A stretch of DNA of 64,000 bases, taken from positions 434,001 through 498,000 of the forward strand of contig NZ_PGCL01000003.1 of NCBI RefSeq assembly GCF_004297185.1, in the 5' to 3' direction. Position 1 is the first letter of the stretch. Each line of letters starts with the position of its first letter. Below, one piece after another: positions 13,118 through 17,109 of this stretch. A program made the translations under genes and the position numbers. The stretch comes from Methanofollis fontis (GTDB taxonomy: Archaea; Halobacteriota; Methanomicrobia; Methanomicrobiales; Methanofollaceae). The notes beneath the pieces were generated by a model that did no database searches, was not told where the DNA came from, and was given only the letters and a program-made list of their open reading frames with translations.

Positions 13118-14038
13118 TTATGGCCCGGAGTTGCCATTGGAGAGCGGGAAAAATTCCCGGTACACGGCACGGCGTTCATCGAGATCGGTATGCAGGTAGA
13201 CTTCGGTCGTCTTGATGGACGAGTGCCCCAGGTTCTCCTGCACCACCCTGAGATTTTTGGAGCGCCGGTAGAGTTCGGAGGCATAACTGTGGCGGATCTT
13301 GTGAGGAGTGATGCCGGGAGGGGCATATTTTCGGAAGATCCTCTGGATCGTCCGGGGAGAAATGTGGTGCCCCTGCTGACCCACAAAGAGCGGCCCCATG
13401 ATCCGATGCCCAATATGACGATCAATTTCCGAAAGAGTCGCCTCATCCACAAAAACAACACGGATTTTGTCCCCTTTCCCGGTTACCCGTATCGTATGCT
13501 CCTCGAAGTCAATATCCTCAATATTCATATTGCACAGTTCAGAAACCCGAACGCCAGTCGCATATATCAACCGAACAATTAACCGATCGGCAGGATCGTC
13601 AATAGAATTGATCAAACGCACCACCTGACTGTGCTTCAGGTATTTTAAGTCCTGATTTTTTATCCTGGGCCTTTCAACACCAAGCATCGGGTTCACCGAC
13701 ACGCCGCCCTGAGCATAGAGATACGAATAAAATGACGCAAGCGTCGAAATCATTCGATGGAGAGTTTTCGGCTTATATTCATACTGTTCTGCAAGAGAAG
13801 AGAAATAATCAGTAACAATCGCGGTTGAAACAGCAACACACACATCGCACCTCGCCCCGTCCACCTCATCCGGCCCGAAGGATCGCCGGTCACCACCCGC
13901 ATGCTGCCGGAGGAAGACATAACGGGCAAAATGCCGTACCGTCTGCTCATAACTTCGGACCGTCCGAGGCGAATAATTCCTCATCCTTAAGTATCCCACA
14001 TATCGATCAAGCCATTCTGGAAAAAATCCACTATCCAT
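13118..14038 (-). CDS. xerA: Xer-type tyrosine recombinase (XerA-like)
   Basis: 306 aa with an N-terminal core-binding SAM-like domain (EWLDRYVGYLRMRNYSPRTV) and a C-terminal catalytic domain. All catalytic positions are visible: Arg164 (TGVRVSEL), Lys188 (TGKGDKIR), His246 and Arg249 (HKIRHSYAS), His272 (LGHSSIKTT) and Tyr281 (VYLH). Size and simple architecture fit archaeal XerA or XerH/XerS-like single-recombinase systems for chromosome-dimer resolution better than phage integrases. A roughly 25-residue insertion (about 44-68, with CDVC) in the N-terminal domain is unusual. The site at 14072-14099 is a candidate substrate. It could instead be an element integrase, since AT-rich DNA follows. 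Confidence 0.9.
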   Translation of the reverse strand: MDSGFFPEWLDRYVGYLRMRNYSPRTVRSYEQTVRHFARYVFLRQHAGGDRRSFGPDEVDGARCDVCVAVSTAIVTDYFSSLAEQYEYKPKTLHRMISTLASFYSYLYAQGGVSVNPMLGVERPRIKNQDLKYLKHSQVVRLINSIDDPADRLIVRLIYATGVRVSELCNMNIEDIDFEEHTIRVTGKGDKIRVVFVDEATLSEIDRHIGHRIMGPLFVGQQGHHISPRTIQRIFRKYAPPGITPHKIRHSYASELYRRSKNLRVVQENLGHSSIKTTEVYLHTDLDERRAVYREFFPLSNGNSGP

Positions 14039-14059: not shown

Positions 14060-14070
14060 CCACATATAAC
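14060..14070 (-). promoter_or_regulatory. TATA box of the recombinase gene
   Basis: GTTATATGTG on the minus strand is centred about 28 nt before the ATG at 14038, which would give a leaderless mRNA. It lies directly between the start codon and the dif-like site. Confidence 0.5.
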
Positions 14071-14071
14071 T

Positions 14072-14099
14072 TTGTCGCAGAATATACATTTGGCGACAA
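14072..14099. other. Candidate dif (Xer recombination) site
   Basis: 28 bp arranged as two 11-bp arms around a 6-bp centre. The left arm is TTGTCGCAGAA (14072-14082), the centre TATACA (14083-14088) and the right arm TTTGGCGACAA (14089-14099). The reverse complement of the right arm, TTGTCGCCAAA, matches the left at 9 of 11 positions, with the outer 7 bp perfect. This 11-6-11 geometry is that of known dif sites, and it starts 34 nt upstream of the recombinase start. Function is inferred. Confidence 0.6.
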
Positions 14100-14581
14100 C
14101 CCCAAAAAGATCCAGGATTGCCGACCTGAAAAGAGAGAGAAAACAGGACGCCAGGATCAAAACAATAAGAGGATGTAAAATAGGCCCGAATTTAATTCCA
14201 AAAAACCAATAGGAACCGCCACCCCACCCAGACACCAACAAAGAAATGGACACCAAAATAGTCCCAATTTATCGTTTTTCAATGAGATACAAGAGCCAGA
14301 TTTCCGACCCACAATCCCAAACCATTGACATCCACAATTAATACCAAAATAGTGCCCTCAAAAAGAGAGAATACAATGTTTTTCCACAAACATTCGCAGA
14401 TTCAGAGTTTTCACCACCCAGACGCCAGATGCCCCGGACTCCGGCACCCCCACCCAACAGCCACTCATTCGCCCCCACAACACCTGCAATATATTTCATC
14501 AAGCCCGGGCGAATGAGAACCCCAATAAAGAGCAATTGAAAACACAACTTATTTGATTGGCAAACACCATTCGATGATTAA
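14100..14581. other. AT-rich, A/C-biased intergenic region
   Basis: No convincing coding frame. The plus strand is markedly rich in A and C. Two short direct repeats (ACCAAAATAGT at about 14252 and 14343) occur. ACTTATTT at 14547-14554 is a TATA candidate about 30 nt before the HNH gene start at 14582. Confidence 0.5.
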
Positions 14582-15178
14582 ATGAGCAGAGATTACAATA
14601 TTAAGGGAAAAAAGAGAGGGAGATGGACGCCAGAGGAAGACATGACCCTCACCCAATTAATGGATCAACACCAGGACATGTATATCGCGGCACGTTTGAT
14701 GGAGAGATCATACTCCTCCATTGCCCACAGATATAAGAAGTTAAAGAATCCCGAAATATTCGATTACGAACGAGATCGAGCAAAAAAATATTATAATAAT
14801 CTAGATCTCGACGGACTTCTGAACGTTCGCCTCAAGACAATGAACCAACACATACAGCAACCATCCCTGATAAAAAAGAATGCGAATGTGCTCGAATTGG
14901 GAGTTGGAGACTTAAAAGAAATCTGGGAGAAGCAGAGAGGAAAATGTTTCTATTCCGGAGTTGAAATGAGCACAGATCCCAGGGATCCCCGTTGCCTGTC
15001 CGTGGACCGAATTAACCCAGACGAAGGCTACACCAAGAACAACGTCGCATTATGCTGCTCCATCATCAACTCATGCAAACGAGAGCACAAAGCTAGAGAT
15101 TTCATAAATATGTGCATATCCGTTGCGAGACATTTCGAAAATATCAACCCGGACAACCATTTATCAGAACGCCTTTGA
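14582..15178 (+). CDS. SANT/Myb-like DNA-binding plus HNH endonuclease-like protein
   Basis: 198 aa. Residues about 13-55 (GRWTPEEDMTLTQLMDQHQD, then SYSSIAHRYKKLK) look like a SANT/Myb helix-turn-helix. Residues about 118-168 resemble phage-type HNH nucleases: GKCFYSG, SVDRINPDEGYTKNNVALCC and NSCKRE, matching the SxDRIxPxxGYxxxNV...C...N..K pattern. Codon use is AT-richer than in all neighbours (AAA, ATA, AAT common), suggesting transfer. A TATA candidate 30 nt upstream implies a leaderless start. Such proteins are typical of free-standing homing nucleases or phage genomes; no phage structural genes are nearby. Confidence 0.72.
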   Translation: MSRDYNIKGKKRGRWTPEEDMTLTQLMDQHQDMYIAARLMERSYSSIAHRYKKLKNPEIFDYERDRAKKYYNNLDLDGLLNVRLKTMNQHIQQPSLIKKNANVLELGVGDLKEIWEKQRGKCFYSGVEMSTDPRDPRCLSVDRINPDEGYTKNNVALCCSIINSCKREHKARDFINMCISVARHFENINPDNHLSERL

Positions 15179-15702
15179 CAGCATAAACTCGGCCGGAGTG
15201 GAATTCAGAGCATTCAGGCACGGTTGAAATGTTTCAAAACACCGACCCCCCAAAATTCAATCAGGATGATCGAATGGGGGAAGGCCAAAACCGGACACTG
15301 AGGAATTTTTAGAGTTCCAGGGGGAAAAGCCCGGAGAATTCCCGGCAGCCGCCGCAATGGAGAATACATTTTGCCGTCGAATACACCCCACAATCACCCA
15401 TACCAGAAAAATTCAGGGGAGGGGAGAAAATGTGTCAATTTTTACTGCCGAAGACAAATAGAATCCCATTGCGGGCACCGATGTAAATTGCCAGGAAATA
15501 ACCGCGGTTTCAACGGCGATCCGATTTAGAAGCGAGACCCGGCCACCCCCCTGGACGAAAATGATTGAATGAGAGTTTCATTCTTGTTTTTTAAATAACG
15601 CCCCATAAACCGGGCCTTTTTGAAAGCCTCCTGCCCGGAGAAGAATACCTGTTCCCCCCATTTTCATTTCAGGATCAGCAAAGACCCCTCACATCCTCCA
15701 CC
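15179..15702. other. Intergenic region after the HNH gene
   Basis: No ORF with protein-like composition. A hairpin (GAATGA/TCATTC, 15567-15583, loop of 5) followed by a T-rich tract (TTGTTTTTTAAA) resembles an intrinsic terminator on the plus strand, 390 nt after the HNH stop. TTTAAATAA at about 15589-15597 could equally be a TATA box. Confidence 0.4.
15567..15595 (+). terminator. Hairpin plus T-tract
   Basis: The 6-bp stem GAATGA/TCATTC with loop GAGTT is directly followed by a T-rich run. It has the form of an intrinsic terminator for transcripts coming from the HNH gene. Confidence 0.4.
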
Positions 15703-15728
15703 CATAAACCATATGATGCTATATGTAA
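15703..15728 (+). repeat. Promoter-like direct repeat, copy 1
   Basis: ATAAACCATATGATGCTATA starts here; it matches the segment at 16503-16528 at about 21 of 26 positions. It contains a TATA-like ATAAACC followed by an ATAT-based inverted repeat (CATAT at 15710-15714, ATATG at 15721-15725). No recognisable gene follows it. Confidence 0.55.
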
Positions 15729-16087
15729 GCGGCGCCCCCAGAACCGGCTCTCACCACCCGCCACGCACCCACACACCACAGAAAAAAGTCGACGACCACG
15801 CCCCGCCGTCCACCACGTATGGAACAGCACCAGACAGAAAATGATGATGACCCACGCCGGATCACAATCGTCGCTGACCGCCCTTTGCGTTGATCACAAA
15901 GGGAAGCAGACCACAAAGCCAGCGATAACCGAACCTGCCGTGACGCTGGGACCCACCATACGATCAGCGGATCACTTGCATCCCCCGCATGTGTGGCGAC
16001 GACTGAACGCTCCCAGGCGCGTTGGAGGCCCAACCATTCATCTGCCGGGAATCTGATGATGGCCAGATAATTCAGATCCACGATCAT
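15719..16087 (-). pseudogene. Doubtful ORF or gene remnant
   Basis: A 122-aa minus-strand frame beginning MIVDLNYLAIIRFPADEWLG. The first 40 residues look protein-like but the remainder is rich in Ser, Arg, Val and Trp without recognisable motifs. I cannot assign it; it may be a decayed gene or chance. The rest of 15729-16500 shows no better frame. Confidence 0.2.
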
Positions 16088-16500
16088 GGACGATGCACCC
16101 CTCGCCACAACCGATCCTGCACAGCGATCGGCGCACCCCAAAGAGGGGAGACGCCACAGCACAACTCCCCCCCCGGTTCTTCTCTCCAAATATTACGCGG
16201 AAGGTATCCCGGCGATCAGGCGCATGAGGACCGGATCGCCCTTACAGCGGGTGCCGGAATGGCGTGCCGAAGACAGAGGAGCATGAAGGGCCCGGCGGGC
16301 AGGACAATTTAGAGAGGAGCTTTCGGATAAGACCCCCTGCCGATCCGGAAAGGCTCAAAAGAGGGTCTCGCCCCCTCAGATGCAGAAGAGTTCAACCACC
16401 ACCCGGACAACTCCGCCGAATTTTCCTATCAGGCGCCATTGCACCGGATAGAAAAAGAAACAGGAGATTATAACCGATTTTTCAGGACGAAAACACCACA

Positions 16501-16528
16501 AATATAAACCATATCATGCGATATACAA
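16501..16528 (+). promoter_or_regulatory. TATA box and operator-like inverted repeat (direct repeat copy 2)
   Basis: AATATAAACC (16501-16510) is a TATA candidate. It is immediately followed by ATATC-ATGC-GATAT (16511-16524), a 5-bp inverted repeat placed between TATA and the expected transcription start, the usual position for an archaeal repressor site. The module is nearly identical to 15703-15728, exactly 800 bp upstream. Confidence 0.6.
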
Positions 16529-16575
16529 AGAAGACCGATCAGGGCAGGGAGATCGAAGGCAGGAGAGATCATCAG

Positions 16576-17109
16576 ATGAAGGAATCAGCAGACCGTGCTG
16601 AAGAGATCAAGAAATACCGGAAATTCAGAAAGGTTGAAGGTTCGACCTACCATCGAGTAAACCAGTTTCTCAGGAAACACACCTACATCACTGCACGAGA
16701 GTGGGCAATCGCCCGCCTCTGTGCTGATTTCCAGACGACGAGCGGAGCGGAGATGACATTCATCGGCGCACACCTCCCCGAACTCGTCCCATTCATGACC
16801 GAGCCCTACACCCCGCAGGCGGTCAATCAGGCAAGAAACGCCTTTAAAAATAAGGTGAAAATGGCCGGAGCCACGTTTTTTTACGGGGCCCTCTGCGGCT
16901 TTTTTACAACCGAGGAGCTTGACGATATCCTGTTCGAAGCAAGCGAGGTCGCCCGTTTCCTCATGGAGATCGAGGGGACCAACCTGGGGATCGATGAGGA
17001 AATCGAACTCGAAGACCGGGTTTCAGAGGTAATGAAAAAAGTCTCCCGTTCATCGGCAGAACTGCTCAATGAAAGGATGAAAAATGCGCACCATGGTGAG
17101 GATACATGA
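16576..17109 (+). CDS. Conserved archaeal protein (DUF5806-like)
   Basis: 177 aa from the ATG at 16576, chosen because AGGAGAG sits 8 nt before it; the in-frame ATG at 16516 lies inside the putative operator. The core (FRKVEGSTYHRVNQFLRKHT, ITAREWAIARLCADF, TPSGAEMTFIG-like TTSGAEMTFIGAHLPELVPF, KMAGATFFYGALCGFFTTEE) matches, to my recollection, a family shared with haloarchaea (DUF5806). It is mostly helical and soluble, of unknown function. It overlaps the MobB-MoaE gene by ATGA, so the two are co-translated. Confidence 0.7.
   Translation: MKESADRAEEIKKYRKFRKVEGSTYHRVNQFLRKHTYITAREWAIARLCADFQTTSGAEMTFIGAHLPELVPFMTEPYTPQAVNQARNAFKNKVKMAGATFFYGALCGFFTTEELDDILFEASEVARFLMEIEGTNLGIDEEIELEDRVSEVMKKVSRSSAELLNERMKNAHHGEDT

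Follow-up and report, generated by a model that had tools for sequence, protein, structure and literature searches.

Results

The xerA gene and its upstream site

The window, i.e. the whole stretch of 64,000 nucleotides of Methanofollis fontis DNA that was analysed, contains on its minus strand, at positions 13118..14038, an open reading frame for a protein of 306 amino acids which is assigned as the archaeal Xer tyrosine recombinase XerA. The predicted protein scored 282.7 bits against the model for the archaeal XerA equivalog (NCBIfam NF040815), which has a cut-off of 220, and also matches the Pfam family PF00589. Its closest solved structure is chain 4a8e, an XerC-like archaeal recombinase which we take to be the XerA of P. 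abyssi. The protein is below the cut-offs of the XerC, XerD and XerS models; with 112.6 bits against the XerS cut-off of 267, the XerS and XerH recombinases, to which an earlier note on this DNA had related it, are the wrong family. The six catalytic residues which that note had recognized (R164, K188, H246, R249, H272 and Y281) are all present, and did not vary among ten aligned orthologues. A single-copy xerA orthologue was found in 53 of the 53 good Methanomicrobiales genomes sampled.

A dif-like XerA site of 28 bp lies upstream of xerA at positions 14072..14099 (minus strand). Read directly in the orientation of the window, its sequence is TTGTCGCAGAA TATACA TTTGGCGACAA. In the orientation of xerA it is TTGTCGCCAAA-TGTATA-TTCTGCGACAA, with arms of 11 bp around a centre of 6 bp, and is followed by AG and then by the TATA block TTATATG. 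On the minus strand, the promoter-distal arm TTGTCGCCAAA occupies positions 14089..14099, the central TGTATA, presumed to be the region of strand exchange, positions 14083..14088, and the promoter-proximal arm TTCTGCGACAA positions 14072..14082. The arms pair at 9 of 11 positions, the outer seven perfectly, and 33 nt separate the site from the start codon of xerA (14036-14038, minus strand).

The 9/11 palindrome alone is not significant, since palindromes of the 11-6-11 geometry with at least 9 of 11 paired positions occurred 21 times in the 64-kb window, as compared with about 10 times in shuffled sequence. The palindrome that the earlier note had described next to xerA was found again when the window was re-read, but the site is counted as real because it is conserved across relatives. 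The genome from which the window derives holds one copy of the site at no more than 3 mismatches, the number that had been expected. Most relatives also hold one copy, and a few have one extra, weaker match, some of these on mobile DNA.

Upstream of the site, a long and mostly non-coding gap (14100-16515) extends from xerA to a conserved divergent neighbour (16516-17109). The gap between xerA and this neighbour measures 0.1 to 5.5 kb in relatives. An HNH/Myb-like gene is found in the gap of the window (14582-15178), and its proximity, together with the presence of a tyrosine recombinase adjoining a palindromic site, would fit the integrase of a mobile element and its attachment site rather than a housekeeping module. 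This explanation is contradicted by the single-copy orthologue in all good genomes and by vertical conservation throughout the order; the divergent neighbours are also conserved, and the protein is assigned to the XerA equivalog. We consider it extremely improbable.

Conservation across Methanomicrobiales and similarity to E. coli dif

An equivalent site was present before xerA, at about -61 to -34, in 52 of the 56 Methanomicrobiales genomes with the gene, the other four belonging to one genus (g6). At the aligned offset, at least 7 of 11 arm positions paired in 50 of the 56 orthologues and 6 of 11 in two more, compared with 0-2 of 56 at control offsets. When the best palindrome was searched for blindly at 136 loci, the offset -61 was chosen in 105. 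The information content of 106 non-redundant promoters shows a steep increase at the left boundary of the 28-mer, so that the distal arm has a sharp outer conservation edge, and the upstream flank is mostly below 0.3 bit. Both arms contain mostly 0.6-2.0 bits, the proximal arm being the better conserved, and the four middle positions of the core are low, its outer T and A being conserved.

The arm covariation score was 0.191, compared with 0.099 in shuffles that were not corrected for relatedness (0 of 500). It fell to 0.03-0.08 when the partner arm was slid by 1-3 columns, a control which preserves relatedness. Covariation was clearest in genus g17 (L032/L175), in which the arms are now TTGACTGAGAA / TTCTCAGTAAT and still pair at 9 of 11 positions. 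The earlier view that a single-Xer dif adjoins its gene is thus borne out by a linked site before xerA throughout the order, as are the proposed conservation of the site before orthologous genes and the covariation of its arms.

The E. coli dif sequence, a query confirmed by its occurrence once per genome in 5192 genomes, shares 17 of its 28 positions with the window site. Compared with 74 distinct archaeal sites, it had a mean of 17 and a maximum of 22 identical positions of 28. Shuffled sites had a mean of 8.4 and never more than 15 (2000 tries). No paper on a dif of Methanomicrobiales was found in a literature search.

Two of four Methanocellales-like genomes (L077 and L078) have 10/11 palindromes of similar sequence approximately 100-170 nt before the likely xerA starts, and upstream of xerA in a third genome there is a palindrome of lesser similarity. 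Because of these palindromes, the linkage of xerA with the site may be older than the order, and the fusion with the promoter may be specific to Methanomicrobiales.

The xerA promoter

The TATA box of xerA, TTATATG, is located at 14063..14069 (minus strand) and corresponds to a conserved T/A-rich block in the 106 non-redundant promoters. The block starts 2 nt past the site, in agreement with the earlier description of the site as abutting the TATA box, and its centre lies approximately 28 nt before the ATG. The spacing between site, TATA block and ATG is almost exactly the same throughout the order. In archaeal promoters the TATA box is centred near -27, with the BRE just upstream. From the distance between the TATA centre and the ATG, the xerA transcript is probably leaderless and the BRE would overlap the end of the proximal arm. 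The proximal arm would then run into the BRE/TATA element of the xerA promoter, and XerA on its own site should exclude or compete with TFB and TBP, lowering its own level. We consider the chances about even that XerA represses its own gene via the promoter-embedded site.

Separation of site and promoter in genus g6

The xerA promoters of the four g6 genomes (family f6) lack the distal arm and the core of the site. A complete palindrome is found on its own 0.6-1.3 kb upstream, within the same intergenic gap. The promoters keep exactly the proximal half-site, ATTCTGCGCAA, which is identical at 11 of 11 positions in all four genomes, and the 17 bp adjoining it share only 3-5 identical positions between genomes, one closely related pair being the exception. 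Rfam gave no match for the site and its surroundings or for the intergenic gap of g6. We read the arrangement in g6 as two functions having come apart, recombination being served by the complete site and the promoter by the half-site. The retention of the half-site favours some promoter function, which could be that of a plain promoter element and not of an XerA operator.

These observations bear on the explanation that the site is dif only and that its placement in the promoter was inherited and is neutral for xerA expression. Known xer-dif modules adjoin the recombinase gene without proven regulation (PMC5357621, PMC2731167), and the palindromes of the Methanocellales-like genomes are clearly upstream of xerA, not against its promoter, both of which are compatible with neutral placement. 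The near-constant spacing in the whole order is less so, and in g6 the half-site remained intact after the loss of its partner arm, while its surroundings diverged to about chance level. Neutral placement therefore appears rather unlikely.

Position on the chromosome

The angle between the site and the Orc1-1 gene had a mean of 122 degrees and exceeded 90 degrees in 18 of 20 complete or near-complete genomes, values which are not independent because the gene order near a second Orc gene is common to related genomes. One genome (G037) has its site at only 42 degrees from Orc1-1. The window genome was left out of these angles, its Orc1-1 and xerA being on different contigs. In many genomes of the order, xerA and the second Orc1/Cdc6 gene (G000:C3:510802-511848 and relatives) are separated by approximately 40-125 kb, in a shared gene-order block. 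In Thermococcales, dif is likewise located 122-142 degrees from the origin (Cortez et al. 2010; PMC2958812).

Base skew was sampled in six genomes, with 20 stretches of 20 kb taken from each. The skew switched within about 30 degrees of the site in three of the six (G002, G012 and G037), and 67 and 91 degrees from it in G005 and G039, respectively; in G056 the switch was ambiguous. Upstream of the window site the local base skew is strong; this was considered as a polarity signal and rejected, the skew being weaker in relatives and like that found ordinarily between divergent genes. The terminus position which the earlier note had proposed is thus only partly supported: the site generally lies away from Orc1-1, but the agreement with skew is inconsistent and the angles share gene order.

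dif-like sites on viruses and mobile elements

dif-like sites were also identified on mobile DNA. Two homologous viral contigs, IMGVR_UViG_3300038321_000339 (L185:9239-9266) and IMGVR_UViG_3300038312_000168 (L186, approximately 2917-2942), which are 80 % identical around the site, carry the intergenic sequence ATTGCGGGGAA TATCCA TTTACCGCAAG. It matches Methanoculleus dif at 21 of 22 arm positions, including non-palindromic ones, and has a different core. An element with its own tyrosine integrase, integrated beside a tRNA-Gly gene (L182:7991-14712, G060:C13), carries a site which matches that of its host at 20 of 22 arm positions and 3 of 6 core positions. A third viral contig, IMGVR_UViG_3300037104_000552 (L181:4949-4976), which encodes an MCM helicase and a terminase, has an intergenic site matching that of Methanoregula at 20 of 22 arm positions and 6 of 6 core positions. 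The hosts of the viral contigs were assigned from the arm match alone.

Strand exchange by tyrosine recombinases depends on homology between the cores. The differing cores of the L185/L186 site and of the site on the integrated element consequently point to resolution of multimers of the element rather than to integration. The matching core of L181 leaves integration at dif possible. The L185/L186 contigs are candidate XerA-using viruses.

A 3.9-kb contig with a gene for a D5-type primase, possibly a small replicon, contains a diverged dif-like site (L183:651-676, G016:C47). Other matches were not retained. Six viral contigs matching a looser pattern (L308-L313) were set aside, the site being inside coding sequence in five and intergenic in L312, for which no archaeal link was seen. 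L179 and L180 were dropped because their matches did not correspond to the full type of site, and L187, which has both a tyrosine recombinase of its own and a dif-like site, may be bacterial.

None of the sites on L185, L186, L181 and the integrated element lies before a xerA gene in the stretches examined, which argues against the reading of the palindrome as only an operator, of XerA or of another regulator, with the true dif elsewhere. Such a reading would account for the fixed spacing to TATA and ATG, for the half-site retained alone at the g6 promoter and for the imperfect terminus position. Nevertheless, in g6 the promoter copy is broken and a complete palindrome persists nearby, off the promoter; copies occur on viral and plasmid-like DNA; the pattern of core and arm conservation and the similarity to E. 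coli dif are typical of a recombination site; and most genomes are without any other copy. An operator alone is thus improbable.

Discussion

With good confidence, we identify the 28-bp site as the dif of Methanomicrobiales, fused to the promoter of xerA. As the single Xer recombinase, XerA would bind dif as two protomers per site and would recombine two dif copies, turning chromosome dimers into monomers. Binding, cleavage and dimer resolution by XerA at this site are inferred from sequence comparison.

The system resembles XerA/dif of P. abyssi, which consists of a single XerA and a 28-bp, bacterial-dif-like 11-6-11 site present once per chromosome (Cortez et al. 2010, PMC2958812). The Thermococcal dif does not adjoin xerA, whereas that of Methanomicrobiales is inside the xerA promoter. 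In Sulfolobales, a different order, dif is reported close to xerA, and overlap with the promoter, fixed spacing and retention of a half-site are not among the features described in the part of the report available (PMC2958812). The bacterial xerS-difSL and xerH-difH modules also combine a single recombinase with a site by its gene, at 16-52 bp in some epsilonproteobacteria, but they involve other recombinase families and are FtsK-dependent, and difSL is 31 bp long with an 11-bp centre (PMC5357621, PMC2731167).

Overlap of a recombination site with the promoter of its recombinase gene has a parallel in the integrases of bacterial prophages and islands (P4/PAI), whose own promoter is repressed at the overlapping att site in a negative feedback (PMC7286903). 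Those are bacterial mobile integrases, whereas XerA is a housekeeping resolvase with an archaeal TATA/BRE promoter and putative regulation. Mobile DNA with host-type Xer sites is likewise known from Xer-exploiting elements and from the cer and psi sites of plasmids (PMC5357621). Here, by contrast, the carriers are viral contigs of methanogens and one integrated element, and core differences favour multimer resolution in two cases. Linked xer-dif modules are thus already known; what is added is the fusion with the promoter, its separation in g6 and the copies on mobile DNA.

More tentatively, the site may be a dual element, in which the two arms form dif and the proximal half also is an operator for XerA. 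In this case g6 would have split the two jobs, and mobile sites with altered cores would be resolved by the XerA of the host without recombination with the chromosome.

One proposal for how archaea, in the absence of an FtsK homologue, time the resolution of chromosome dimers is that the expression of xerA is controlled (Cortez et al. 2010; PMC2958812). A dif embedded in the promoter provides a concrete, testable feedback circuit for xerA. The sites collected here form a catalogue of putative dif sites covering an entire methanogen order, together with a natural half-site experiment and candidate XerA-using viruses, and such sites could anchor site-specific genetic tools in methanogens.
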